A DNA stretch of 46,680 nucleotides from a virus (IMGVR_UViG_3300027706_000003:1-46680), one strand, 5' to 3'. Shown: positions 2,028-46,009, numbered from the stretch's first letter. Notes: a model not told the origin generated them from the sequence alone. Translations and numbers: made by a program.

Positions 2028-2547
2028 CCGGGCGCGACGCGCGGCACTGCTCACAGCGGCCGGGTGTGCTGACGCGGACGTGTGTACCGCCGCGGGGATC
2101 ACGGCGGACGAGCTTGCCGTGTATCAGCGGTCACCGCTTTGGCAGATGCTCGTGGAGCGCGCGCGGGGCTTGGAACCACAACCCAAGCTGGCCGATGTCC
2201 TCATGGAGGACGCGCCGACGAACGTGCGATTCTTGCGCGAAGTGCGCGACGGTCTCGTCGAGGACACCCCAGGTCGACTGCAGACGCGGCTGCGGGCGGC
2301 GCAGCTTTTACTGGATCGCCAAGTGGCGAGCGCGGACCAGCGCGCGAATGCGGAGACGGCGGCACGCATTGTGGTGGAAGGGCGGCTCATGGGGCAAATC
2401 CTGCACGCCATGCGCGAGACCGGCGTGCTGGACGTCACCCCGGAGGCGGTGGAGAGCGTAACGCAGGGGCCCGCAACGGCGCCGGCCGTGCCCGCGATTG
2501 TCACCCCGGAGGACTATGCCTCCCAACACGAAAAAGACGAGCCCTAG
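2017..2547 (+). CDS. terS: Putative terminase small subunit
   Basis: 176 residues directly upstream of, and overlapping, the terminase ATPase gene. The N-terminal third (AGITADELAVYQRSPLW) looks like an HTH that could bind the packaging site, followed by helical, charged segments suited to ring oligomerisation and an Ala/Pro-rich tail. Small subunits are poorly conserved, so the call rests mainly on position, size and architecture. The ATG at 2017 is chosen because it gives a short overlap with the preceding stop. Confidence 0.6.
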   Translation: MLDSRARRAALLTAAGCADADVCTAAGITADELAVYQRSPLWQMLVERARGLEPQPKLADVLMEDAPTNVRFLREVRDGLVEDTPGRLQTRLRAAQLLLDRQVASADQRANAETAARIVVEGRLMGQILHAMRETGVLDVTPEAVESVTQGPATAPAVPAIVTPEDYASQHEKDEP

Positions 2548-3733
2548 CCCCGAGAACCGCATCTCCGAGCGCCTGCTGGAGGCTGTCGGCGGCACGGAGT
2601 GGATTCAGCGCGCCGAGATGATCGTGGAGCGCAACGGCACCGTGCGGCAGGCGGGCGCGGATCGCGTCGATACGAAACTCATCACGACGTTCCGCACCGC
2701 CTGCGAACAATCGCTGTACTGCTTCCTCCGTGGTGTGCTGGGGCACCAGTTTCTCGATCCGGCGCTGCACAAGCCCGTGTGCGACTGGCTGACCACCATC
2801 CCGCCCTACCGCAAAATGCTCCTCATGCCGCGCAACCACGGCAAAACCACCATCGTGGCGCAAGGACTCCCCCTGCATATGATTATTCAGCCGGCGGAGA
2901 AGAATCGATATTTTCGCGCAATGCTGGGCACCGACGTGCGCATCGTCCTCGCGGGCGAAACCGAGGAGATGGCCGTGCGCAACCTGCGGTACATCAAGAC
3001 CATGTTGGAAGGCAACGCGCTGCTGCGCGCGCTTTGGCCGCACGTTGCATGGGACAACGCACGCAAACAGGCGCCCAAGTGGTCGGACGACCAGATTATT
3101 GTGCCGCGCCAGACGCCGTTCGCCGAACCCACCATCCGCGCGATCGGCGTGGGCGGGGCCGTGACGGGCATGCACCCGTGCTGCCTCATCAAGGACGATC
3201 TCACGACGCAGCGCGCCGCGAACGAGCCGCCCACGATGGCGAAGGCGATCGAGTGGCACAACGATTCGCGCGCGCTGTTCGCCAACCCCGACACGGACTT
3301 GGAGTTCATCACCGGCACGCGCTGGGCGAACTTCGACCTGCCAAGCTACATCGCCGAACACGACAAGACCGTCGCGATCAATACGCGGTGGCGGCGCGTG
3401 GTCGAAGACGGCCAACCGTTGTGGCCCGCGAAATACGGCTTCCCGGGTGCGATCGAACAGTTGCAGAAGGAGCATGGCCTCAAGTTCAACCTGCTCTACA
3501 TGAACGAGGCGATCGGGGAGGGCCTGACCGATTTCTTGGACAGCGAGCTCCGCACCTATCGCCTAGTGGGCGGCGCGATCCAGTTCGAGGCGCAGGCGAG
3601 CGACGAGGCGTTGCGCGAGGCCGTGGAAGCACCCGCGCCCGAGCCGGGCATCCCAAGCCGCCGCGGCATGGACCTCTACACGGCGCTGACGCTGGAGAAT
3701 TTGGAGTATTTGCGCAACACTCGGAGTGGGTAA
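2516..3733 (+). CDS. terL: Terminase large subunit, ATPase domain only
   Basis: Motor ATPase that drives DNA into the procapsid. It has a terminase-type Walker A (MPRNHGKTT, residues 104-112), Walker B (CCLIKDDL, 222-229) and coupling motif TGTRW (266-270). At 405 residues it stops after the ATPase and linker; the RNase H-like nuclease that normally follows in the same chain is a separate gene at 4300-4959. GGAGGA at 2508-2513 precedes the ATG closely. Two small genes and a dispersed repeat sit between the two halves, and the halves are in different frames, so simple stop-codon readthrough cannot join them. Confidence 0.88.
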   Translation: MPPNTKKTSPSPENRISERLLEAVGGTEWIQRAEMIVERNGTVRQAGADRVDTKLITTFRTACEQSLYCFLRGVLGHQFLDPALHKPVCDWLTTIPPYRKMLLMPRNHGKTTIVAQGLPLHMIIQPAEKNRYFRAMLGTDVRIVLAGETEEMAVRNLRYIKTMLEGNALLRALWPHVAWDNARKQAPKWSDDQIIVPRQTPFAEPTIRAIGVGGAVTGMHPCCLIKDDLTTQRAANEPPTMAKAIEWHNDSRALFANPDTDLEFITGTRWANFDLPSYIAEHDKTVAINTRWRRVVEDGQPLWPAKYGFPGAIEQLQKEHGLKFNLLYMNEAIGEGLTDFLDSELRTYRLVGGAIQFEAQASDEALREAVEAPAPEPGIPSRRGMDLYTALTLENLEYLRNTRSG

Positions 3734-4124: not shown

Positions 4125-4310
4125 ATGCGGCGGCGGTGGGAAACGGCGTGGAGCTGGCTGGTCGAGCGAGGCTTTGTGGTGGTCTACAGCGCGCTCGCGA
4201 CGGTTGCGCTGGTGCTTCTCGTCGTGGGAATGATCATTGCGGCGACGGGATTCTGGGTGGCGGAGCGCTTGGATCGGTGGGAGTCGCAGTGGTGGAACGA
4301 TGGAGACTGA
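4125..4310 (+). CDS. Small single-pass membrane protein
   Basis: 61 residues with one strong hydrophobic segment (about residues 17-43, GFVVVYSALATVALVLL onward) between a Trp/Arg N-terminus and a charged C-terminus. A GTG at 4122 is an alternative start. The last 11 bases overlap the nuclease start. It could be a holin-like or other membrane-acting protein, but the nearest lysis enzyme is 3.4 kb away, so no function is assigned. Confidence 0.55.
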   Translation: MRRRWETAWSWLVERGFVVVYSALATVALVLLVVGMIIAATGFWVAERLDRWESQWWNDGD

Positions 4311-4959
4311 GACCACCATTGCCTTGAGCGATCTTCCGGAGCGCTATGCGTTCCTCGATCCCGCGAGTTCGCGCAAAGACAACGAGCATCGTCTCGTCAA
4401 AGCGCGGTCGGCCATTGTGGTGGTAGCCTCGGATTGGCTCGGGCGTATCTTTGTGTTGGATGCGTGGGCGGGGCGCTGCTCGACCGATGCGTTGATCGAG
4501 CGCATTTTTCGCACGCATGAGATGTGGAAACTGCGCGTGTTTGGCATTGAGGCGAACGCGATGCAGGAACTCTTCTTTGAGGCGGTGCAACGCGATGCGC
4601 GATTGCGGGGCAAACCGTTGCCGCTGCGCGCTGTGCATCAACCCACACATGTGACCAAGGACTGGCGCATCCGAACAGTGCTGCAGCCATTGGTGGCCGG
4701 CGGTCGTCTGTTCCTTCGCGAAGATATGCTTGAGCTGCGCACGGAGCTGACGGCGTTTCCCCTGTCACCGGTGAAAGACTTGGTGGACGCGCTCGCGTCG
4801 GCGGTCAAGTTGGTGCCGCGGCGCAGTACACGCCGCGAGACCGATCAAGAAGTCGAAAAACTTCTCGACTATCTCCGAAAGACGGGTGCGCCGCCGGCCG
4901 TGATCGAAGAGGTGGTACGGCGGAAGCGGTTCAATACGACGCGGTGGAGGATGGGGTAA
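4300..4959 (+). CDS. terL: Terminase large subunit, nuclease domain as a separate protein
   Basis: 219-residue RNase H-like nuclease that would cut the DNA concatemer during packaging. The acidic residues sit where expected: FLDPAS (D20), FGIEANAMQ (E84) and VKDLVDALA (D160/D163). This matches the C-terminal half of tailed-phage large terminases, yet it has its own start codon, overlapping the upstream membrane gene by 11 bases. It presumably pairs with the ATPase encoded at 2516-3733. The catalytic pattern is clear; the physical association is inferred. Confidence 0.82.
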   Translation: METETTIALSDLPERYAFLDPASSRKDNEHRLVKARSAIVVVASDWLGRIFVLDAWAGRCSTDALIERIFRTHEMWKLRVFGIEANAMQELFFEAVQRDARLRGKPLPLRAVHQPTHVTKDWRIRTVLQPLVAGGRLFLREDMLELRTELTAFPLSPVKDLVDALASAVKLVPRRSTRRETDQEVEKLLDYLRKTGAPPAVIEEVVRRKRFNTTRWRMG

Positions 4960-33153: not shown

Positions 33154-34407
33154 TTATTCGTTGCCCACGGTGTGCGGCAGCCGAACCGTGGGGACGATCC
33201 AGGTATACAGCGTCATCGGACGGCCCCCCGTGGTTTTCTGTTCCATCCGAATCCGCTGCGCCTCAAGCAACACCTCAAGAATTTCGGTCAGGTGACGCGA
33301 AGTCTTTACCCCGCGCTCCATGGCGTATCGCATCAGCTTGGTGCGCGAAATCGGGGAATTCAGGCGAATGATTTCCTCCACAACCACGCGCGCCTGCGTT
33401 TCTGGGCTTTGGTAGGCATAGGTCGCCACGGTTACGATGTTCTTCACGACCACATCGCGAAACGCACGATCCGCGCGCACAATGGCTTCATCGTCCACCA
33501 CGAGCGGTTTACCCGGACGCCACCGTGACAGCGCGTACACCATGGCAAGCTTGACCACCGTCGTGCGCGCCCGCGTGAGCACATTGCGCTCCACATCAGC
33601 CAATTGCGTCGTCCGCAACCGTTCCACCTGATGTGCAAGCCACTGTTGGTAAAAGATTTCCCCGCGATCGGTGAAGACGAATTCTCCTTCGATGGTAAGC
33701 AGGTCGCGACAATGACGACGCAAGCGTTCCATGCGGGCGTCATGGTCCGGCTTGCGCGGCGGCGTAATCACCTCGTAGGCTTCGTAGACGGGATCGGCAC
33801 AAACGAACACGGTGCGGCCTGCAAAGCCAGCCGTGAACACGTCCGGATGCACCGCACGCGGAAACCACGATCGCGTGCATCCAGCAATCCAGTTCAGGAG
33901 TGGACGGTTGACCGTCTTGGTGCCACTGGTGCGCGTGATGTCGATCAGTTCGCGATCGCGGCCGCCGTAGAGGGGCAACACGCGCGACATGAAATCCATG
34001 GCCTCGGCCCCAATGGGAAGCTGTTCCACCACATCACTGCTGACCAGGTAGACCGGCGCACCAAGACGCTGCGAGGCGCGCTGCTGTCGTTCCATGTAGT
34101 CGTAGAGCCCTGAGATCGTCACCTTGCCGTCGACGCACCAGAGCGCATCCTTCGGGAGGAGCTGCTGCGCTGCTCCAATGGCGGAGTCTTTGCCGGTCCC
34201 ACTATCGCCGACCAGAAATACCCACAGATTCGGGTACAGCGGCGAAAAGTCCACCATGCGCAGGCAGACGCGATCCTCAACGGCCGCGGCCAACACCGAA
34301 AGCGCCGCCCAGTGTAAGTAGACCTCGGGAATGATCCAGCCTCGATAGAGATCAACAAACTCGTCGACAAAGTCCCAGGACGTTACGGACAGCGACAAAG
34401 GTTCCAT
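33154..34407 (-). CDS. Putative replicative helicase/ATPase (DUF3987-like)
   Basis: 417 residues from the ATG at 34407, which follows GAGAGG. P-loop GDSGTGKD at residues 67-74 (Asp after the Lys instead of Ser/Thr). EVYLHWAALSVLAAAVEDRV before it and the later LLNWIAGCTRSWFP and GFAGRTVFVCADP resemble DUF3987-type phage helicases. The C-terminus looks like a winged helix (NSPISRTKLMRYAMERGVK). It overlaps the polymerase gene by 25 bases; no separate primase was found. Confidence 0.6.
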   Translation of the reverse strand: MEPLSLSVTSWDFVDEFVDLYRGWIIPEVYLHWAALSVLAAAVEDRVCLRMVDFSPLYPNLWVFLVGDSGTGKDSAIGAAQQLLPKDALWCVDGKVTISGLYDYMERQQRASQRLGAPVYLVSSDVVEQLPIGAEAMDFMSRVLPLYGGRDRELIDITRTSGTKTVNRPLLNWIAGCTRSWFPRAVHPDVFTAGFAGRTVFVCADPVYEAYEVITPPRKPDHDARMERLRRHCRDLLTIEGEFVFTDRGEIFYQQWLAHQVERLRTTQLADVERNVLTRARTTVVKLAMVYALSRWRPGKPLVVDDEAIVRADRAFRDVVVKNIVTVATYAYQSPETQARVVVEEIIRLNSPISRTKLMRYAMERGVKTSRHLTEILEVLLEAQRIRMEQKTTGGRPMTLYTWIVPTVRLPHTVGNE

Positions 34408-37001
34408 GCGACCTCTCGCATTTCGGCGTCCGAGGGAAGCCGTGTCCATTCCACCCCGCCCGCGCCGCCCCAGCGTGCAGACACCTTGAACGTCACCGGC
34501 ACCCGCAACAGCGTGCCCCCGATCGGCCGCGGCACCATCAGGGTCCGTTCAAGCAATCGCACAATCTCCGGCACCATATCCGGTGGCACGGATAGCACCA
34601 CGCTGTCGTGCACTTGCAGAAGCGGCGGCCGCCCAAGGCTGCTTTCGGCCCAACACCACGCGGGCCACAGCCCGCACTGATTCATTAAGTCTGCGGCTTC
34701 GCTCTGCGGCAAGAAGCTATAGGCTTGGCGAAACACGTCGTCGTTGAGACGATCGAAGTCGAACCGCATCACGCGGCCCCACGAGTTCACGAGACGGCGA
34801 TCCCGCAGAACGCAACGCCGCACCCACCGAAAGTAGTGCTCCCGAATCGCAGGCTTCGAGCGATGGTAGGCTTCTACATAGGCGTCGCAGGTGTGGACAG
34901 GAATCACCAGATTCAACTCGCACAGAATACGATCGCTCAGGCGCGCGCCACCCATGCCTCGCTGCGCACCGTGGCTCACGATCTTCCCAATGTGCCGCTT
35001 AAGTTTCCAGTCGGGATCAGACGGCTCTGCCCCGAAAATGGCGCGGGCGTTTTCGGCGTGCGTGTCGTACTCCCACGGTGGCGTATTGGCCAGGCGCTGC
35101 AGTTCCGGATCGTTCGTCAGCGCAAACACCACCCGACTCTCCACCTGCGACAAGTCGGCCTCAACAATCACCTCGTTCGGCTGATCCGGTACAAAGATGT
35201 CGCGCAGCGCCGGATCGATGTTTTGCAAGTTCCGCCCCGGGCCCCAGGGCGTCGCCGCGCTGGCTAAGCGCCCCGCCTCCGTCACAAAGCTAAAGCTGCA
35301 CCGCATGCGGCCATCGGTGTCCAAGAGGTCCGGGTTGAGCACTTCCGCATGTTTGCGGTTTTGCCGATACGCCAGGAGCGCGCGAGCCAACTCCGGCCAG
35401 CCGTCGCGCGATTCGTATTTTCGCCACAAGCGCCGCACAGCCGCCTCGTCCGCGGTCACCGTGGACCCTTTGCCGTCGGTCCGCCGCTTCTTGCGGGGGA
35501 GAAAGCCGTACGAACGCACCGCGGGAAACTTGGCCTTCAGGGTGGCCACCTTCGTGGCCGAGAGGCCCCGCGCGCCGTACAGTACGTACTTGACGCGGTC
35601 ATCAGACAACCCCCGCTGCACCACCAGGGGCATCCCATCCACCGTCAACGGACCCTCGCGCAGCCGCTGCGCCTCGGCTTCGAGGGCTGCCCGACGCGTG
35701 CGGAGCAGTTCCGCATCGACCCGGAAGCCGTGCGCCGTCATCGCGAGTACGGCAGGAATGAGTCGGGTAACATGACGAAAGTAGAACTCGGCTAACCCGT
35801 GCTGCACCAGCTCCTTGCGCAGCGCGTCGAAGACTTCCCACGTCACGGCAACATCCATACCGCAATAGGTCCACAGCGCCTCGTCTGCGTTCGCGTATTT
35901 GTACGTCTCACGCGCTTCGAGTTTCCAGTACGACCACTTGGTGTACATGGAAGCGAGGTACGCGAGGTCGTGATCGTCGCGCGGATCGAGCACGTGATGC
36001 ATGCATCGCGTGTCCCAGTACGTCTGCGACGGTGTGATGGCGAGCCAGCCATCGCGCACTAGCCATGGCAAGTCGAAGCTCACTCCATTCTGGGTCACGA
36101 TCGCGGGCACCTGCGCGAGCAGGCGTCGCACTGCGACCTGCACCGCAGGCCATTCTGGCCCCCAGTGGCGCGCTTCCAGCGGCACGGTCCAGGTCGTGCC
36201 GGCCTCCACGGCAAGGCCGATACAGGCGATATGTCGTTCGCCTGGTACCGTGCGCGTTTTGGGCTGCCCTTTGCGCGCGCCACTCTTGTAGCACACCACA
36301 TCGGTGCGATCCGGCGTCGCTGGCACCCATTCCCCGCCGAGCGTCAGCATCTCCGTGCGCGGGCGTCGTGGGGTTTCAATGTCGAGCACGCAGCGATCCG
36401 TGGTCGTTGTGCTAAGCCCGTGCAGCTCGTCCAGGGTTGGAACGCGGTGCTCCCACGCGATGCGCGGCGGCGGTCCGTACCGCACCAAGTCTGCGATGCG
36501 TTGCCAGTCTCGCAATGCCCGACGTTCCCACGATGGCGTCCGAAGCACCGCGGCCGGGTGCACCGTGGGAATCACCCAGAGCGTGCGATCCCCAAGCGTC
36601 GTCGAAAGCATAGAGCCGCGCCAGTCGAGAATACCGGTCCGTGTGCTGCGCTGCCACGGGACATGACCACGACCGGTCAAGGCATAGAGCGCATAGTTTC
36701 CGAGCGGCACAATCACTCGGGCGCGGCATTTCGCCAAACGGGCGCGCAAGGCCTCCGCGGCTGCCTCGATCTCCTCTCGTGGTACGCGCTCGAGCACTTC
36801 CGGGCGCCACGGCAGCACGTTCGTCAGATAGCAGTCTTTGCGTTCGAGACCGACGCGCCGCCACCACGCCGCAAGCCGTTCGCCGCTCGGCCCCACGAAC
36901 GGCCGTCCCTCCCGTTCTTCGTGCGCGCCAGGCGCCTCGCCCACCACAACAATCGGCGCGTGCAACGACCCATCATCAGGCACATGCGGCTTGGTCGTCA
37001 T
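34383..37001 (-). CDS. DNA polymerase: uracil-DNA-glycosylase-like domain fused to exonuclease and PolA
   Basis: 872 residues in three parts. Residues ~15-175 look like a family-4-type uracil-DNA glycosylase (VVVGEAPGAHEEREGRPFVG; TNVLPWRPE; HPA at 148-150). A 3'-5' exonuclease follows (DIET 207-210; NGVSFD about 305-310; YCGMD 379-383). Then PolA motifs A (EADLSQVESR, 614-623), B (KRHIGKIVSHGAQRG, 668-682) and C (VHDS 797-800; Ser where Glu is usual). The four Fe-S cysteines of family-4 glycosylases are not visible. It is the replicative polymerase of this phage. Confidence 0.85.
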   Translation of the reverse strand: MTTKPHVPDDGSLHAPIVVVGEAPGAHEEREGRPFVGPSGERLAAWWRRVGLERKDCYLTNVLPWRPEVLERVPREEIEAAAEALRARLAKCRARVIVPLGNYALYALTGRGHVPWQRSTRTGILDWRGSMLSTTLGDRTLWVIPTVHPAAVLRTPSWERRALRDWQRIADLVRYGPPPRIAWEHRVPTLDELHGLSTTTTDRCVLDIETPRRPRTEMLTLGGEWVPATPDRTDVVCYKSGARKGQPKTRTVPGERHIACIGLAVEAGTTWTVPLEARHWGPEWPAVQVAVRRLLAQVPAIVTQNGVSFDLPWLVRDGWLAITPSQTYWDTRCMHHVLDPRDDHDLAYLASMYTKWSYWKLEARETYKYANADEALWTYCGMDVAVTWEVFDALRKELVQHGLAEFYFRHVTRLIPAVLAMTAHGFRVDAELLRTRRAALEAEAQRLREGPLTVDGMPLVVQRGLSDDRVKYVLYGARGLSATKVATLKAKFPAVRSYGFLPRKKRRTDGKGSTVTADEAAVRRLWRKYESRDGWPELARALLAYRQNRKHAEVLNPDLLDTDGRMRCSFSFVTEAGRLASAATPWGPGRNLQNIDPALRDIFVPDQPNEVIVEADLSQVESRVVFALTNDPELQRLANTPPWEYDTHAENARAIFGAEPSDPDWKLKRHIGKIVSHGAQRGMGGARLSDRILCELNLVIPVHTCDAYVEAYHRSKPAIREHYFRWVRRCVLRDRRLVNSWGRVMRFDFDRLNDDVFRQAYSFLPQSEAADLMNQCGLWPAWCWAESSLGRPPLLQVHDSVVLSVPPDMVPEIVRLLERTLMVPRPIGGTLLRVPVTFKVSARWGGAGGVEWTRLPSDAEMREVAWNLCRCP

Positions 37002-37053
37002 GGGCAAGCCAATCGGGGGAGGGGCGGCTTCCTGCCGCCCCCACAGGCTCTCG

Positions 37054-39658: not shown

Positions 39659-39933
39659 CAACGCGCCCTCCCCCGGCCTCGGGACTCACCCTCCGGATGA
39701 GGAGAGGCTGGAAGGGGGGTGGGTGGCTGGAACGCCATGGCCACCGCGTCGGCCAGGATCGTGGACAGACTCGCGCCCCGCCCCATGCTAGCGCGCAGCA
39801 CGGCTCCAATGGTGAACGCGGCCACGCGCTCCACCTGCTCCCGCGAGCAGGAGGGCTCTTGCAAGAATGCTAGCAAGTGCACCAGTCGCGCCCGTGCACA
39901 CAGTTCGCGTTTGTCGGCGGGGGGCGTCGTCAT
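39658..39933 (-). CDS. Hypothetical protein with a repeat-derived C-terminus
   Basis: 91 residues. The first ~68 form a helical unit (LCARARLVHLLAFLQEPSCS; VAAFTIGAVLRASMG). The last ~23 (PPTPLPASPHPEGESRGRG) are the translation of dispersed repeat copy 8, so the repeat appears to have inserted into or replaced the original 3' end. It is coupled to both neighbours by overlapping start/stop codons. Confidence 0.6.
   Translation of the reverse strand: MTTPPADKRELCARARLVHLLAFLQEPSCSREQVERVAAFTIGAVLRASMGRGASLSTILADAVAMAFQPPTPLPASPHPEGESRGRGRAR
39678..39719 (-). repeat. Dispersed repeat, copy 8, inside a gene end
   Basis: GGGACTCACCCTCCGGATG then AGGAGAGGCTGGAAGGGG. It is read in frame as the C-terminus of the gene at 39658-39933. 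Confidence 0.8.
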
Positions 39934-40334
39934 GCGTGCGACCGTCCTAGCACGCGGCCGGGCGCGCCGTCAACTGCGGCCGGCCCGGCGTCCTCCCCCT
40001 GGGCCGCGGGCGCTGGTGACGCAGCGCGGCGCCGGCTGCAGCTGCGACGCCCCCGGACGGCGCGAATCCAGCCCGTCGGGATGACGATGAAGTCGCCGTA
40101 CTCCGGCTCGTCTTCCGGCGTTTCGGGCGGATCGAACGTGGCGGCGAGAACGTGGACCGGGACGCCGTGGAGGTCGGGGCCCTCGTAGACCAGCCATCCT
40201 TTGCACAAGCGCACGGCGAGCCCGACGCGCTGCGGTACGCTTTCACGCGGGAGCGTGTCGTAGTTCCACGACCGGGCATCGTACCACTCAATGACGACTT
40301 CGGGCGCGCGCGGCGCCGGCTTCTTGGTTCCCAT
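39930..40334 (-). CDS. Hypothetical protein
   Basis: 134 residues starting at an ATG preceded by GGAGGG. The N-terminal ~90 residues (VVIEWYDARSWNYDTLPRES; LAVRLCKGWLVYEGPDLHG; PEYGDFIVIPTGWIR) read like a small beta-sandwich; the C-terminus is Arg/Ala-rich. It follows the paralogue array and overlaps its last member, to which its strand pattern is only vaguely similar. Confidence 0.6.
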   Translation of the reverse strand: MGTKKPAPRAPEVVIEWYDARSWNYDTLPRESVPQRVGLAVRLCKGWLVYEGPDLHGVPVHVLAATFDPPETPEDEPEYGDFIVIPTGWIRAVRGRRSCSRRRAASPAPAAQGEDAGPAAVDGAPGRVLGRSHA

Positions 40335-40530
40335 GGGGTTCCCTCCTTGGCCGCCGCCGCGGTGGGTGCGGCGCGGGCGTGATTCGGATCCAAAGACAGG
40401 CACGACGGCAGCGGAGCACGTGCTGCGAGTCTGCGCGGAGGAGACTAATGAACGTCCATCCGAGCTTGCTCGGCCGAAGGAGCCAAACAGCGCTGCCGCC
40501 GAGCGGCGCCGGTTCAACGCGAAGCGTCAT
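40288..40530 (-). CDS. Array member 16, MT[LF] small paralogue
   Basis: 80 residues; the first ~40 (MTLRVEPAPLGGSAVWLLRP) align with the member at 40736: 18 of 38 positions are identical by eye. The rest is Arg/Pro-rich and overlaps the following gene, so its end may be eroded. The start overlaps the preceding stop (TGATG). Confidence 0.6.
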   Translation of the reverse strand: MTLRVEPAPLGGSAVWLLRPSKLGWTFISLLRADSQHVLRCRRACLWIRITPAPHPPRRRPRREPHGNQEAGAARARSRH

Positions 40531-40739
40531 CACGAGGGCTTTCGCACAGAGTAGGAGGACCTGAACCGAGCGCTCGGCCGTTCTGCGCGGGGCTCTTGGC
40601 GGCAGTAGATCGAAATGAGCTCCGGATAGAAGGACCAAGAGCAGCGAATGTCAATGGTATCGTGTTGCGGGGAGGCCGCAAGGTACCAGACGTACGAGTG
40701 ATGGCGTTGGTTGTAAAGGCGGATCGCAGAGAAGGTCAT
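40530..40739 (-). CDS. Array member 15, MT[LF] small paralogue
   Basis: 69 residues. After MTFSAIRLYNQ comes the strand YVWYLAASP, then W-S-F-Y and an Arg/Ser-rich basic tail. Start overlaps the previous stop. Confidence 0.6.
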   Translation of the reverse strand: MTFSAIRLYNQRHHSYVWYLAASPQHDTIDIRCSWSFYPELISIYCRQEPRAERPSARFRSSYSVRKPS

Positions 40740-40921
40740 CGGTCGTTACCTTTACGCAGGAAGCAGACAATGCGACGCTCGCTGCGCGCGTTGTCGATGT
40801 ACCAAAAGAGACTGTGCGCGTCGGCGTGGAGAAAGGCGACGAACGGCCGAGGCCGTTTGGCAGGGCGGAGAAGCCAGACGGCGTCGAGGCCGACGGCCGA
40901 CGGTTGAAAGCGTAAGGTCAT
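40736..40921 (-). CDS. Array member 14, MT[LF] small paralogue
   Basis: 61 residues: MTLRFQPSAVG, second strand AVWLLRP, then a stretch FVAFLHADAHSLFWYIDN and a basic end. It is the best preserved relative of the member at 40288. ATGA overlap with the previous gene. Confidence 0.65.
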   Translation of the reverse strand: MTLRFQPSAVGLDAVWLLRPAKRPRPFVAFLHADAHSLFWYIDNARSERRIVCFLRKGNDR

Positions 40922-41121
40922 TGCTTCCCTCGGGCTGAGCCGATCGGCTCGGGCACGATAAATCGGTATACCTGCTGGTGACCGCTTGGGGTAGAGATAT
41001 ACCAGGATTGGCCAGCGGGGTGCACCCGGAGCAGGACGACGAACGTCGAATCGGCATCGTTGAGGCGGAGCCTCCAAATAGAACCCGTGCCAGGGGCAGA
41101 TGGTTCGAGGAGGAAGGTCAT
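40918..41121 (-). CDS. Array member 13, MT[LF] small paralogue
   Basis: 67 residues: MTFLLEPSAPGTGSIWRLRL, then TFVVLLRVHPAGQSWYIS. EPSAPG and the W-containing strand align with the two relatives downstream. The start shares its first base with the previous stop. Confidence 0.65.
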   Translation of the reverse strand: MTFLLEPSAPGTGSIWRLRLNDADSTFVVLLRVHPAGQSWYISTPSGHQQVYRFIVPEPIGSARGKQ

Positions 41122-41318
41122 CAGGTGTCCTCATGACATGGGCAGACGCACCGGTCGGCGAGGCAGAGCTCGGCCGGGTCGTCGGTGCCGCACTTGGCGC
41201 ACCACGCACCTGGCCAGCCGGACCACCAGTGATCGCCCACGGGCTCGCCGTGGAGCGAGAACTGCGCCGGGCAGGGCTGCGCATGGTCAACGTGGCAGGT
41301 AGGGATATGGATCATCAT
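41121..41318 (-). CDS. Array member 12, Cys-rich zinc-binding-like protein
   Basis: 65 residues, not of the MT[LF] type. Cysteines in WCAKCG and C-x4-C-x-C-x-C near the end, with several His, suggest one or two zinc sites. It resembles small Cys-rich proteins common in phages. ATGA overlap with the previous stop. Confidence 0.6.
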   Translation of the reverse strand: MMIHIPTCHVDHAQPCPAQFSLHGEPVGDHWWSGWPGAWCAKCGTDDPAELCLADRCVCPCHEDT

Positions 41319-41488
41319 GGGCGATCCTCGTCAGATGGGGAGTCTCTAAGACTAATCACGCCAAACGGAGTGTAGTAGCAGCAACCCCATAAAGCGATCC
41401 AAAGCAAGTCGTTGCTCGGTTTAGGTACAGCCACATTGCGATACATTACCCAAAAGCCTGAGCCTCCGCGATCAAAGGTCAGTGTCAT
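41315..41488 (-). CDS. Array member 11, MT[LF] small paralogue
   Basis: 57 residues: MTLTFDRGGSGFWVMYRN, then LLWIALWGCCYYTPFG and an acidic end. It overlaps the preceding gene by 17 bases, longer than the usual ATGA overlap. Confidence 0.6.
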   Translation of the reverse strand: MTLTFDRGGSGFWVMYRNVAVPKPSNDLLWIALWGCCYYTPFGVISLRDSPSDEDRP

Positions 41489-41693
41489 AACCGAGGCCTC
41501 CGGGGGCGCGGGGCGTGTCGCCGGCGACGAAGACGGCCGTGCGCTGACCCGGACCATGTTCGGTGCAGCGGAGGATACACAAGGCCTCCAGGGCGGTGAG
41601 CGTGCAGCCGGCGGGCGCGACGTGGTTGTGGAGGACGATGGCGACGCCGCGCTCCCCGCGGAGGCCGACGACGGCGCAGCAGCGGAAGGTCAT
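41472..41693 (-). CDS. Array member 10, small protein
   Basis: 73 residues beginning MTFRCCAVVGLRGERGVAIVLHN. The first two strands could be related to the MT[LF] family but the Trp is missing, and the rest (LEALCILRCTEHG) differs. Start overlaps the previous stop (ATGA). Confidence 0.55.
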   Translation of the reverse strand: MTFRCCAVVGLRGERGVAIVLHNHVAPAGCTLTALEALCILRCTEHGPGQRTAVFVAGDTPRAPGGLGYDTDL

Positions 41694-41953
41694 GCGGGTG
41701 CCTTGGCGTCGCCTCCAGCAGGTGCCTTGCAGGGGGCCGACGCGGTGCCGTGCGGTTCGCCAAAGAGCCACGACGCGGCGAGGCGATGGCGCTCGAAGAG
41801 GAGGATGGCGACGGTAGGCGGTGCGTCGGCCGGGTAGTGTGCCCACTCGAACACGACAAACGGGAACCAGCCAGCCTCCGGGAAGCGGCCGGGGGCCTCG
41901 GCCTTGTAGCACACGAGGCGGGCGCCGCGGATCACGGACAGTGTCATGGTCAT
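41690..41953 (-). CDS. Array member 9, small protein
   Basis: 87 residues beginning MTMTLSVIRGARLVCYKAE, with WFPFVVFEWAHYP and HRLAASWLFGEPHG. Aromatic and strand-rich, plausibly a long, diverged relative of the array. ATGA overlap with the previous gene. Confidence 0.55.
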   Translation of the reverse strand: MTMTLSVIRGARLVCYKAEAPGRFPEAGWFPFVVFEWAHYPADAPPTVAILLFERHRLAASWLFGEPHGTASAPCKAPAGGDAKAPA

Positions 41954-42141
41954 GCGGGGGCCTCGAAGGTGTAGGTAGTATGCCGGCTCGCACCCGGCGG
42001 ACGCACGGTAATCACCGTGGCTTCCCACGCCTTGGCGTCGAAGGCCAGGACTAACCCCCGGTCGTCCCAGCGGAGTGATGGCGCGCAGACGGCGCGGACG
42101 CGCGCCGAGTAGAGCGGGTCGTACTGGAGGCGGAGCGTCAT
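41950..42141 (-). CDS. Array member 8, MT[LF] small paralogue
   Basis: 63 residues: MTLRLQYDPLYSARVRAVC, then LRWDDRGLVLAFDAKAWEATVI in two strands. Divergent member; the family Trp is displaced. ATGA overlap with the previous gene. Confidence 0.55.
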   Translation of the reverse strand: MTLRLQYDPLYSARVRAVCAPSLRWDDRGLVLAFDAKAWEATVITVRPPGASRHTTYTFEAPA

Positions 42142-42317
42142 CGTTCTGGAAAATGGATCACCAAAGCCCCTTGGGAGGCAAAGTTTCTCCTCGTGGCATA
42201 CCAGACAGACGCCATGTACCAGACAGTCTCGGACATACTCAGATGAACAGACATTGCGCGATTGGCGATGGTGATCCACCCCGTGTCTGGCGCCCATGTC
42301 GTGAGGCGAAAGGTCAT
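42138..42317 (-). CDS. Array member 7, MT[LF] small paralogue
   Basis: 59 residues: MTFRLTTWAPDTGWITIANR then ETVWYMASVWYATRR. Typical member with a two-strand start and a WY motif in the second half. ATGA overlap. Confidence 0.65.
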   Translation of the reverse strand: MTFRLTTWAPDTGWITIANRAMSVHLSMSETVWYMASVWYATRRNFASQGALVIHFPER

Positions 42318-42514
42318 CGTCCGGCCCTGGGGTGGGCAGTGTAGCGGTACATGCACGTGGGTGCGTACCATACGAGGTCGCCGGTGTCCTCTTCGAGCTT
42401 GAGTAAATCCCGAACGAAGTCACCCCGGAGATAGCTCCGAGAGTCGTGGGGGCGAAGGACCCATACAACCGTTTTCCCCTTGGCGTTGCGTTCGGCTTGG
42501 ACGCGGAGGGTCAT
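42314..42514 (-). CDS. Array member 6, MT[LF] small paralogue
   Basis: 66 residues: MTLRVQAERNAKGKTVVWVLRP, a charged helix-like middle, then GDLVWYAPTCMYRYT. The VVWVLRP strand matches AVWLLRP of members 14 and 16. ATGA overlap. Confidence 0.65.
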   Translation of the reverse strand: MTLRVQAERNAKGKTVVWVLRPHDSRSYLRGDFVRDLLKLEEDTGDLVWYAPTCMYRYTAHPRAGR

Positions 42515-42747
42515 GGGGCGTCTCCTTGGGCAATACAGTCGCAGAGCGAAAGGCGTCCCGCAAAGTAGAGGCAGCCGCCCCGAACACCGAGGTGCGGGCA
42601 GTACTGGAGTATGCGGATGTCGAGTGTCTGCGACAAGGGCTCGACGTGCGCGCGCCAGTGGCAACCGCACGCGAAGTAGACATGGACCGTGGGTCGTGGT
42701 TCGGTGTCTACTTCGATCACGGTTCCGCGAATTCCAAGATCAGTCAT
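42511..42747 (-). CDS. Array member 5, Cys-rich protein
   Basis: 78 residues with six cysteines, including FACGCHW near residue 27 and LCDC near the end; possible zinc-binding fold. Starts MTDLGIRGTVIEVD, so it may be a diverged relative or an unrelated gene inserted into the array. ATGA overlap. Confidence 0.6.
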   Translation of the reverse strand: MTDLGIRGTVIEVDTEPRPTVHVYFACGCHWRAHVEPLSQTLDIRILQYCPHLGVRGGCLYFAGRLSLCDCIAQGDAP

Positions 42748-42941
42748 GGGGTATCCTCCAGCAGGGGAAACGGACGGGCGTGCGGGCTGGTGAGGCGAAA
42801 CTTCACGCTCACGTCGTCCGGGACGCTGCACGAGAACACGGCGTACCATTGAGTTGTGGGGGAGAGTCGCCCCCGGTCGCGCTCCGTGGCCTCGATCCAC
42901 CACGTCTCTGTCGTGGCGGAATACTTGAGTTTGAGGGTCAT
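42744..42941 (-). CDS. Array member 4, MT[LF] small paralogue
   Basis: 65 residues: MTLKLKYSATTETWWIEATERDR, then QWYAVFSCSVPDD and VKFRLTSP. Closely parallels member 3 (MTLTFAYSPATMAWWIDVADRR), the clearest neighbouring pair. ATGA overlap. Confidence 0.7.
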   Translation of the reverse strand: MTLKLKYSATTETWWIEATERDRGRLSPTTQWYAVFSCSVPDDVSVKFRLTSPHARPFPLLEDTP

Positions 42942-43123
42942 CGGTTGCCGCGCAGGGACTCGTCTGGGCGGGGGAACCGGATGACACCTGCCCATGGGAA
43001 GGCCGCCGTCTTCGGAACGAACCACGTGACGGTTTGTCCGTCGAGGAGCACCCTCTGGCGACGGTCGGCGACGTCGATCCACCACGCCATCGTTGCTGGC
43101 GAGTAGGCGAAGGTGAGGGTCAT
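42938..43123 (-). CDS. Array member 3, MT[LF] small paralogue
   Basis: 61 residues: MTLTFAYSP, then MAWWIDVADRRQRVLLDGQ and VTWFVPK, with a basic end. Typical MT[LF]/WW member. Its ATG overlaps a stop in the frame that member 2 should end in. Confidence 0.7.
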   Translation of the reverse strand: MTLTFAYSPATMAWWIDVADRRQRVLLDGQTVTWFVPKTAAFPWAGVIRFPRPDESLRGNR

Positions 43124-43331
43124 GTAGGCGAGCCTCTTAAAGCCGGTCTGATCCCGGCCGTCGCCGAGTACGGTGTACTCGTGGTGCGCGCGGCGCCACG
43201 TGCGCGTGGGAACGAGGCAGACGGCGGAGGCGTGGGCGCCGGAAGTAGATGAGGCAGTCGCCATGAATAGTGGCAGGAAGGTGTATCCAGGCGACCTTCC
43301 CGTCCTGTGAGGCTCCGAGAGTGAGGGTTAT
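43120..43331 (-). pseudogene. Array member 2, MT[LF] paralogue with ATA in place of the start and a likely frameshift
   Basis: At the junction with member 1 the sequence is ATAACC where other junctions have ATGACC: the expected start is ATA, and the upstream stop is TAA instead of TGA. The first ~30 residues (TLTLGASQDGKVAWIHLP) are clearly family-like, then the frame becomes Arg/Pro-rich and ends at 43137. The frame that gives the normal ATGA junction to member 3 is a different one, so a -1 shift seems to have occurred. It is either a decayed copy or sequencing error. Confidence 0.6.
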
Positions 43332-43489
43332 GGGGTAGGCCTCCCAAAGACTGTCTCCCGACCGTCGCCGGGTACGGTGTACCAGCGAAACTCGGCGGGG
43401 GCGAACCACGCCGCATAGGCTTGCCATGCGGTTCCCCAGAATCGGACATGGACGCGGCCGTCGTAGCCACGTTCGAGGCGGAAGGTCAT
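43328..43489 (-). CDS. Array member 1, MT[LF] small paralogue
   Basis: 53 residues: MTFRLERGYDGRVHVRFWGTA, then AWFAPAEFRWYTVPGDGRE. First member of the array; the ATGA overlaps the stop of the VWA gene, tying the array to the MoxR/VWA pair. A strand resembling EFRWYTVPGDGR also occurs in a shifted frame within member 2. Confidence 0.65.
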   Translation of the reverse strand: MTFRLERGYDGRVHVRFWGTAWQAYAAWFAPAEFRWYTVPGDGRETVFGRPTP

Positions 43490-44718
43490 GGGTAGCCTCC
43501 CAAGTGCGCCAGCAGGCGCGGACGCCACGAAAGGCGCCAGCGACCGTGCTGGGTGAGGAACACGGCGAGTGGCACGGGGGGCGCGGGGGGCGCGTCGGCG
43601 CACTCGCCGTCCGTCACGTGGACCAGAAGGTCGTACTGGGCGAGGGCGGGGGCCTGGTAGAGGGGCCCGAAGCGCGTGCCGCCCGTGCCAGGGTCGCGGA
43701 GGCCGCAGCGAGAGCGCTGAGGTCGCGACGGCGGACCGTCGCTATGGACGCACCACTCAACGTCGGCGATGCGCTCGAGTGCGGCGCAGGCCCGCGCGAG
43801 CGTCAAGGTTTCGGGCTCCATGCTGCCCGAGCGGTCAAGCGCCACGAGGATGCGGCCGCGCCGCGTTCGCCCCGAGCCCGGAAGGATCGGGTCGGTGATG
43901 TAGCGGTGCGCGCGGCGCCACGTGCGGGTGCGCATGAGGCGCGCCGTGCCGAGTGCCTGAAAGAGGACGGCCGCGAGGCGGACGGCAGGATCCGGGGGTG
44001 CCGGGGGAAGCGGGGCGCACGGACGAGAGCCGTCTCCAGGCGGGACGGCAGGGCCAAGGCCAAGGAGTTTGTCCTTGCACGTGGCGTCGTCGGCGATGGC
44101 GCGGCGGGCGCCATAGCGCTCGACCGCCTCCGTGGCGCGGTCATACTCGCCGCCCTCGGGGCCTTGTTGATCGCAGGTGCCGGGACCGTCGCCCCGATCG
44201 TCGCCCTCCGGGGTGTCGCCCTCGGAGTCGTCGTCGTCATCGTCGTCGCTCGAGGGATCAGGGATAACGTCGTACCATTGCCGCCAGGTGGGGCGCTCGC
44301 AGGGGGCGAGGGAGCGCCAGGGCTCTCTTGTGGCGTCAACCACGGGAAGCGAGGCGCAGAGCGTAGGCAACAGTGTGTTGATCCTCAGGTCCCGCGCTAG
44401 GTTGAGTTTGTGCGGGTTTGCCCGGTCGAGGTCGGGCGGCGCTGCCAGGTCGCCAGCGGCAACATGGAGAAGCTCATGACGGATGACATCGGCAACGACG
44501 TGCGCCGGGACATCGGCGAAGGATGGGAGTATGGCGACCGTATAGCGGCCCGTCTGGTCGAGCGTGGTACGGGCGAAGTACTTGAGGCGGCCCTTTCTCG
44601 TCAATGGCGGGGGATCGAGCGCGACAAGGCGCGGGCGAAGCCATGCGATAGCGCTTGGGGGAAGGCCGCCGTCCGCTGCGTGGGCAAGAATCGTGGAAAT
44701 CGCACGTTCGTGGATCAT
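43486..44718 (-). CDS. Putative metallopeptidase with VWA domain (DUF2201-like)
   Basis: 410 residues. The N-terminal domain carries VIRHELLHVAAGD (HELLH at 81-85), a zinc-peptidase signature. An acidic linker with seven Asp in a row (about 158-164) follows, then a VWA-like domain with the metal-site motif LVALDRSGSM (291-300) and VTDGE (368-372). This is the layout of DUF2201 proteins, which are usually encoded beside MoxR ATPases. The substrate is unknown. Confidence 0.75.
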   Translation of the reverse strand: MIHERAISTILAHAADGGLPPSAIAWLRPRLVALDPPPLTRKGRLKYFARTTLDQTGRYTVAILPSFADVPAHVVADVIRHELLHVAAGDLAAPPDLDRANPHKLNLARDLRINTLLPTLCASLPVVDATREPWRSLAPCERPTWRQWYDVIPDPSSDDDDDDDSEGDTPEGDDRGDGPGTCDQQGPEGGEYDRATEAVERYGARRAIADDATCKDKLLGLGPAVPPGDGSRPCAPLPPAPPDPAVRLAAVLFQALGTARLMRTRTWRRAHRYITDPILPGSGRTRRGRILVALDRSGSMEPETLTLARACAALERIADVEWCVHSDGPPSRPQRSRCGLRDPGTGGTRFGPLYQAPALAQYDLLVHVTDGECADAPPAPPVPLAVFLTQHGRWRLSWRPRLLAHLGGYP

Positions 44719-45827
44719 GCAGGATCCTTCTGTCGGCGGTCAAGCTCTTTGAGGGTGGCAAAGAGCTTGGCAAGGCGCTCGGAGGCCTCGGCGTCGTTGT
44801 CGAGGGGCCAGCCGACGACGTCGACGGCTGCGCCGCCCGTGCGGGATAGCTCTTCTGTGATCCACTTTCGAATGGTGTCTTGCCATTCAAAGAGGATGTC
44901 CCTGGACGTGCCTTCGGCGACGCGGCGGAGAGCGATGGCATACGCGTCGGCACAGCCATGCTGCAAGAACATAGCGCCCCCGGCGGCGACCAGGTCGGCA
45001 AGTGGCATCGACTCTGCCAAGGCGATCGCGGTCTCTCGGTCGCGGTCAAGTGCCGCCCCCAGGTCGGGCGGCACAGCGTCGCGCGCGAGCAGTAGGTCCC
45101 GGACCGGGGCGTGCCAGCGCTCCGCGAAGAGACCGCGGAGCAGGGCCTCGAAGCAGGCCGCATCGGGCTCGCCGTGTTCGTCGCGGGGTAGAAGTGCCGC
45201 GAGCGCTGCGGCCTCGCATACGGTGCGCGGGCAGGGGTCGCCTACGGGGGGCTGCGGGGCGTGTCCGAGGTCAGCGAACGCTGTGAGCGAGGCTGTAGGG
45301 ACGCGCAGGTGTTGTGCGACGTAGGACCAATCGGCCCCAAGCGGGAGCCATAGCATCCGCCGGGCCAGTGCGAGTCGGAGCTCGTCGGCGTGCCAGGCGT
45401 CGTCCATCGTCGGTTGCATGGCGACAATGATGCGGGTATCGCCATGCAACTCTATGCTCTGGTACCGGCGCTCCCATAGGAGCGAGAGCATGGCGCCGGC
45501 TGTGGCAGGCGCCGTATCAAGCGCTTTGTCGAATTCATCGACAAAGAGCACCGCGCCGGGCTGCATACAGCGGGCAAGTTGTGGAAGCGCCAAGAACTCT
45601 ACACGCTCCGCGCCTGCGCGTCCGCGTGGGCGCGGTAGTGCTAGGTCCTCAGGCAGCAACGCTTGTGCATGGAGGACCACTACGTCACGTCCCTCGGCGG
45701 CTGCCCAGGCGCGGACTCGCGCGGTCTTGCCCGAGCCGGACGGGCCGATCAGGCACGGCACAAGGGCTTCGCGGGACTCCCCCTGCCGCTGCCACGTTAC
45801 GTGGACAAGCATTTCTATGGTATTCAT
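44715..45827 (-). CDS. MoxR-like AAA+ ATPase
   Basis: 370 residues from the ATG at 45827, preceded by AGGAG. Walker A GPSGSGKT (28-35) and Walker B VLFVDEFD (94-101) with a RIIVAMQPT sensor-like strand later are typical of MoxR-type AAA+ ATPases. These act as chaperones or metal/cofactor inserters with VWA partners. The stop overlaps the start of the VWA gene, so the two are probably co-translated. Confidence 0.78.
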   Translation of the reverse strand: MNTIEMLVHVTWQRQGESREALVPCLIGPSGSGKTARVRAWAAAEGRDVVVLHAQALLPEDLALPRPRGRAGAERVEFLALPQLARCMQPGAVLFVDEFDKALDTAPATAGAMLSLLWERRYQSIELHGDTRIIVAMQPTMDDAWHADELRLALARRMLWLPLGADWSYVAQHLRVPTASLTAFADLGHAPQPPVGDPCPRTVCEAAALAALLPRDEHGEPDAACFEALLRGLFAERWHAPVRDLLLARDAVPPDLGAALDRDRETAIALAESMPLADLVAAGGAMFLQHGCADAYAIALRRVAEGTSRDILFEWQDTIRKWITEELSRTGGAAVDVVGWPLDNDAEASERLAKLFATLKELDRRQKDPA

Positions 45828-46009
45828 TGAAGCTCCTGGTCGCGGAGCGCTTGGAGCGCGGCGAGCAACCGTCGCGCCGCGGCAAGCTCCTCGTTTACGA
45901 TCGTCTGAAATACCCTCGGAAGAGGGCCGAGCTCGCTGACGATCGTGGCAATCTCTTGATAGAGATTGCACAGCTCTTCTTCTGGGCTTGGTTGGACGGT
46001 GGTGGTCAT
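45824..46009 (-). CDS. Hypothetical small helical protein
   Basis: 61 residues: MTTTVQPSPEEELCNLYQEI, then a long Ala/Leu/Arg helix (NEELAAARRLLAALQALRDQ). Its end overlaps the MoxR start by four bases. No family recognised. Confidence 0.6.
   Translation of the reverse strand: MTTTVQPSPEEELCNLYQEIATIVSELGPLPRVFQTIVNEELAAARRLLAALQALRDQELQ

Follow-up and report, generated by a model that had tools for sequence, protein, structure and literature searches.

The stretch of DNA analysed here, referred to as the window, is a virus record from IMG/VR (IMGVR_UViG_3300027706_000003) of 46,680 bases, whose minus strand carries an array of 16 consecutive small reading frames, g1 to g16, running from 43489 to 40288. 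The frames encode 53-87 amino acids (aa) each and together fill 3.2 kb. A preliminary description of the window had proposed 16 tandem minus-strand genes of about 50-90 codons, nearly all joined by ATGA or TGATG overlaps, and both points were borne out: 11 of the 15 internal junctions are overlaps of four nucleotides (nt; ATGA or ATAA) and two are 1-nt TGATG overlaps, the exceptions being g10/g11, which overlap by 17 nt, and g2/g3, which are separated by a gap of 13 nt. At the ends of the array, g1 overlaps the stop of the upstream VWA-metallopeptidase gene by 4 nt, and g16 overlaps the next downstream gene, g17, by 47 nt. The frames are given below, together with the two groups of paralogues, A and B, to which some of them were assigned.

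43328-43489, minus strand: g1, 53 aa, MTFRLERGYDG...; start motif only in common
43137-43331, minus strand: g2, 64-codon frame with an ATA start; 5' half (ITLTLGASQDGKVAWIHL) member-like, 3' half mosaic and out of frame
43152-43218, minus strand: mosaic patch within g2 (3' half), resembling the VWA gene and then the 3' end of g1
42938-43123, minus strand: g3, 61 aa; group B
42744-42941, minus strand: g4, 65 aa; group B, with a sub-threshold SPDY/DUF317 match
42511-42747, minus strand: g5, 78 aa, Cys-containing; membership not demonstrable
42314-42514, minus strand: g6, 66 aa; group A
42138-42317, minus strand: g7, 59 aa, lower G+C (54%); group B
41950-42141, minus strand: g8, 63 aa; start motif only in common
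41690-41953, minus strand: g9, 87 aa, alternative start at 41947; start motif only in common
41472-41693, minus strand: g10, 73 aa, overlapping g11; start motif only in common
41315-41488, minus strand: g11, 57 aa, low G+C (51%); probable member, both Trp positions align
41121-41318, minus strand: g12, 65 aa, Cys-rich; non-member
40918-41121, minus strand: g13, 67 aa; group A
40736-40921, minus strand: g14, 61 aa; group A, with a low-confidence beta-rich model
40530-40739, minus strand: g15, 69 aa; probable group A member
40288-40530, minus strand: g16, 80 aa, with an Arg/Pro-rich tail reaching into g17; group A
39930-40334, minus strand: g17, 134 aa, next downstream gene; non-member

Most of the 16 genes have ribosome-binding sites and phage-like codon use. 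Shine-Dalgarno-like cores upstream of the array genes had a mean of 4.1, compared with 2.1 at random positions of the region. By codon use, the annotated frame was the best of the six for 10 of the 16 genes and the second best for four, with g16 third and g2 fifth. The spacing pattern of three starts has two occurrences in the window, and 100 shuffles gave none.

The 16 frames of the earlier gene set stand, with a reservation for g2, which has no ATG. It starts instead with ATA (43331), within an ATAA overlap, and its 3' half scores as non-coding in the annotated frame, whereas another frame scores well by codon use. This well-scoring frame is a patchwork, in which 36 nt that are 86-89% identical to positions 43905-43940 of the VWA gene, whose reading frame they keep, are followed by about 47 nt that align, across one 3-nt gap, with the 3' end of g1. 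The similarity scores of the patch were out of reach of shuffled controls. The g2 gene is probably the product of recombination within the region followed by loss of the frame, i.e. a pseudogene; alternatively, the frame break may be an assembly or sequence error.

Threonine occupies position 2 in 15 of the 16 genes and leucine or phenylalanine occupies position 3 in 14 of them (p ~2e-11 against composition), and tryptophan is enriched 2.3-fold across the array. It had been suggested that the M-T start is partly forced by the junction. This does not hold, as no more than the first base of codon 2 is determined by the ATGA overlap, and therefore T at position 2 and L or F at position 3 are real shared features. 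In addition, a 29-nt DNA repeat spans the starts of g1, g6 and g13. The start motif and the Trp excess may result from common descent or from a copied start cassette.

Family membership was tested with the first five residues removed, so that the start motif was ignored. The trimmed pairs gave shuffle z values of 10-12 for g13/g14, about 10.7 for g14/g16, 6-7.5 for g13/g16 and 6-7 for g3/g4, confirming the similarity that had been noted by eye for g14/g16 (18 identities in about 38 positions) and for g3/g4. Four of the 120 pairs in the array had z above 6, compared with 0 of 378 and 0 of 153 in the small-gene sets of two other phages. With a profile built from g13, g14 and g16, g6 was retrieved above all 2125 shuffled decoys, as was g7 with a profile of g3 and g4. 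For g15, the score was above all decoys in the trimmed test and weaker in others. Leave-one-out tests were suggestive for g2 (5' half), g10, g11 and g15 and gave no support for g1, g5, g8, g9 and g12. As shuffling also removes strand periodicity, the weak signals may reflect a general beta-protein pattern and not homology. In the profile comparison, g11 joined at P 0.014, and g5, g12 and g17 failed to align.

These sequence comparisons support two paralogous groups, A (g6, g13, g14 and g16) and B (g3, g4 and g7), the closest paralogues being 54-64% identical in DNA, and make g11, g15 and the 5' half of g2 probable members of the family; the same comparisons place g5 and the Cys-rich g12 outside it. 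The preliminary description had counted at least eleven paralogues in an expanded, undescribed family. From the trimmed tests, seven genes in two groups are retained and two or three more are probable, four share the start motif only, and g5 and g12 fall outside. The family, which no named family matches, covers about half of the array, smaller than had been claimed, and the proposed expansion is supported for this half. The g12 protein shows a Cys/His-rich pattern, WCAKCGTDDPAELCLADRCVCPCH, that is zinc-ribbon-like by eye.

Searches of Pfam, PHROG, NCBIfam, PADLOC, PDB and phage records gave nothing significant for the array members, in agreement with the earlier statement that no named family is known for them. 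None of the ten proteins scanned against PHROGs matched below E 0.26, and protein searches of phage records with g4, g12 and g14, as well as PDB sequence searches, were negative. A DNA search against phage records gave a single 34-nt match, which was due to chance. The best sub-threshold match was that of g4 to SPDY/DUF317 (PF03771; E 0.0015, 18.9 bits against a cut-off of 25), covering the part of the profile with a Trp-strand and a second Trp. This identity was rejected because g4 falls below the Pfam gathering cut-off and the other members have no match. The match of g13 to Tad8, a type II Thoeris inhibitor (PF25189; 12.1 bits against 27, E 0.17), was regarded as noise. With 6-7 window sequences as input, AlphaFold2 predicted a four-strand antiparallel structure for g14 (pLDDT 63.5; strands 13-18, 27-33, 37-43 and 49-55) whereas the g4 model (pLDDT 55.8) has only a hairpin and a single further short strand (strands 2-8, 13-18 and 44-47), along with a short helix. 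Foldseek searches of PDB and BFVD returned no match with E <0.4 and were not used.

The plus strand carries terminase, portal and capsid genes up to about 24.5 kb. Between 46 and 24.6 kb, replication genes follow on the minus strand in the order MoxR ATPase, VWA-metallopeptidase, array, PD-(D/E)XK nuclease, AAA ATPase and DNA polymerase, placing the array between the MoxR and VWA genes on one side and the nuclease, AAA and polymerase genes on the other. The array probably lies in the early operon, on the replication side, of an uncultured tailed phage. Its two upstream neighbours are the following.

43486-44718, minus strand: VWA-metallopeptidase gene directly upstream of g1, 410 aa; metallopeptidase-like region with HELLH (HExxH) at the N-terminus, and VWA domain with a DRSGSM motif at the C-terminus
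44715-45971, minus strand: MoxR-type AAA+ ATPase; the start in common with that of the relative is an inner Met at 45827

The AAA_5 match of the MoxR ATPase exceeds the Pfam cut-off. The VWA domain was assigned by motif, with the DUF2201_N and VWA_CoxE matches of the metallopeptidase under the cut-off. The combination of MoxR with a VWA protein carrying an N-terminal HELLH region, found here in a 46.7 kb genome, has been described for group 2.2 jumbo phages (PMC7824862). No third component of the MoxR-VWA ternary conflict systems (PMC7159879), such as VMAP, was recognised, although no search was aimed at VMAP.

In one relative, G010, the capsid protein is 94% identical over 202 residues, and a single contig carries MoxR and VWA about 14.6 kb ahead of the capsid gene. 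Given this order, the two ends of the window fit as neighbours, and the window is therefore probably a near-complete, circularly permuted genome in which the array is not cut.

Other features were also observed. The large terminase lies in two frames, with the ATPase part at 2498-3733 (plus strand) and the nuclease part at 4237-4959 (plus strand), about 500 bases apart; in relatives the terminase parts are also separate matches, the gaps ranging from about 40 to 430 bases. Neither an RNA family nor, for the terminase, an intron was detected with Rfam. Two 49-nt direct repeats (818-866 and 938-986), 92% identical and 120 bases apart, are located ahead of the rightward genes and are possible promoter or origin elements. 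The DNA polymerase frame (34383-37007, minus strand) opens with a region that is uracil-DNA-glycosylase-like by eye, and in the relatives G007-G009 the matches to the glycosylase-like and polymerase parts are separate pieces. Near a contig end of relative G008, upstream of the nuclease gene, lies a low-complexity stretch of Arg/Pro-rich repeats (L091 9155-9830).

In the capsid-based relatives G007-G009, at about 66% identity, the polymerase is kept and VWA is missing, and array members were undetected in the compared stretches of these three polymerase-bearing genomes. The nearest relative with both upstream genes is G010, in which the MoxR/VWA pair is 63% and 52-53% identical. Its VWA gene is followed by a small overlapping MT- gene (MTAYLYSYNHRIRIRANM...), within which the contig ends after 58 codons. 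The array is absent from AAA-based relatives, which have other genes or none at that place. No further array-bearing contig came up when viral contigs were searched with the VWA protein, the polymerase, the MoxR and VWA alignments and the G010 VWA; the group A alignment was conserved too weakly to serve as a query. When IMG/VR was searched for a DNA pattern of three spaced ATGACSYT starts, 93 stretches were returned, with no comparable MT[LF] chain among the loci analysed. A scan of genome contigs with MoxR gave distant matches only. Fast diversification would be consistent with the low DNA identity of the closest paralogues and the absence of the array from the relatives with 63-66% identical capsid protein.

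We consider it about an even chance (roughly 0.5) that the array encodes a set of small early proteins that has expanded in this lineage, is translationally coupled and acts on the host, probably in counter-defence or takeover. One ancestral gene of about 60 codons would have undergone repeated local duplication, giving at least seven of the 16 genes and probably nine or ten. Protein identity among the copies would have fallen to about 25-36%, with the Shine-Dalgarno site, two Trp positions and a first strand of the form MT[LF]x[hydrophobic] retained. Other tiny genes (g5, g12 and perhaps g1 and g8-g10) would be interspersed among the copies. As the stops and starts overlap, translation of all members is probably coupled on one transcript, and roughly balanced amounts of the proteins would then be expected. 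A small antiparallel beta-sheet is the most likely fold of the members. They would probably bind host proteins early in infection, each with another target or variant, so that defence is blocked or host processes are redirected; such a role is plausible by position and analogy. Signs of local recombination are present in the g2 patch, taken from the VWA gene and g1. A more far-reaching version appears doubtful, namely that a new tiny beta-protein family forms an array of translationally coupled cassettes whose variants are constantly created and dropped through duplication, patchwork recombination and frame decay, so that one transcript would supply the phage with a ready set of inhibitors of many host defences.

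Several results weigh against an expanded family that acts on the host. Groups A and B are collinear along their length by hhalign, with a weak link (P 0.035), and g1, g8, g9 and g10 align to the profile over 2-11 starting residues only (9-11 for g1 and g8). The g14 and g4 models are of low confidence, beta-rich and without significant structural match, and no member resembled a known anti-defence protein in the sequence and profile searches. The partial gene of G010 has no detectable similarity to any array member, and so far a single genome is known to carry the array, one relative hinting at a counterpart. It is also possible, at a lower probability, that these are mostly unrelated small early genes sharing a start cassette, with only the groups of four and three being true local duplicates. 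The similar Shine-Dalgarno-ATGAC-first-strand DNA could then result from coupled translation or from recombination at the junctions. The alignments confined to the starting residues, the failure of g5 and g12 to align, the junction DNA repeated at g1, g6 and g13 and the unremarkable leave-one-out p values of several genes would all fit this. However, the L or F at position 3 is unforced by the overlap, Trp is enriched array-wide, and g11, g15 and the 5' half of g2 beat most decoys without their start.

The array proteins could instead be partners of the adjacent MoxR-VWA-metallopeptidase pair, as substrates, cleaved precursors or adaptors of a chaperone/protease machine, which we regard as unlikely. 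The genes are directly adjacent, VWA and g1 overlapping by 4 nt, the only relative found with the pair also has a small overlapping MT- gene next to it, and zincins paired with small, fast-diverging proteins occur in bacterial conflict systems (PMC7159879). On the other hand, the members have no conserved cleavage motif or common C-terminus, and the excerpts of PMC7824862 propose a role in virion assembly for the jumbo-phage pair and mention no such array. Even less probable is a set of small nucleic-acid-binding or transcription-modulating beta proteins, remodelling host transcription or protecting phage DNA. The small beta-rich models, the Arg-rich tails of some members and the early-region position would suit such proteins, and the zinc-ribbon family of Bacillus phage G is a precedent for expansion (PMC7824862), but no known DNA-binding family was matched in the profile searches.

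For an expansion acting on the host, parallels can be drawn with known systems. Sulfolobus rod-shaped virus SIRV2 has 12 AcrID1 homologues (PMC11065993), also a family of small proteins expanded in a viral genome and strongly diverged, among other unannotated small genes. Most SIRV2 early genes, however, have their own promoter with a common regulatory sequence, whereas the array is an overlapping chain with presumed coupling; AcrID1 function was tested, whereas the array is known from sequence, and the two have no sequence match. In phage T4, segmental amplification of the counter-defence gene tifA (PMC9391042) shows how local recombination can multiply a small gene of this kind, the counter-defence role of the array being suggested by analogy. 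The T4 repeats arose in an evolution experiment, while the array copies are just 54-64% identical in DNA and are therefore old and diversified. The zinc-ribbon expansion of phage G, of about 35 copies (PMC7824862), is likewise a lineage-specific expansion of a tiny phage protein with an unproven role, but phage G is a jumbo phage and the array members have no conserved Cys. The MoxR-VWA-metallopeptidase pair of the group 2.2 jumbo phages (PMC7824862) has by motif the same architecture as the two genes upstream of the array; this likeness concerns the neighbours and not the array.

To summarise, the array is real and its family has no name, and its function is argued by analogy. Tandem arrays of divergent small viral genes have previously yielded new counter-defence proteins, and 16 frames in 3.2 kb, about half from one unnamed family, are a compact set for synthesis and group screening against defence systems. 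The mosaic g2 offers a view of how such small-gene arrays turn over. Should the members prove to be ordinary early ORFans, the array would remain an example of small genes packed by coupling.

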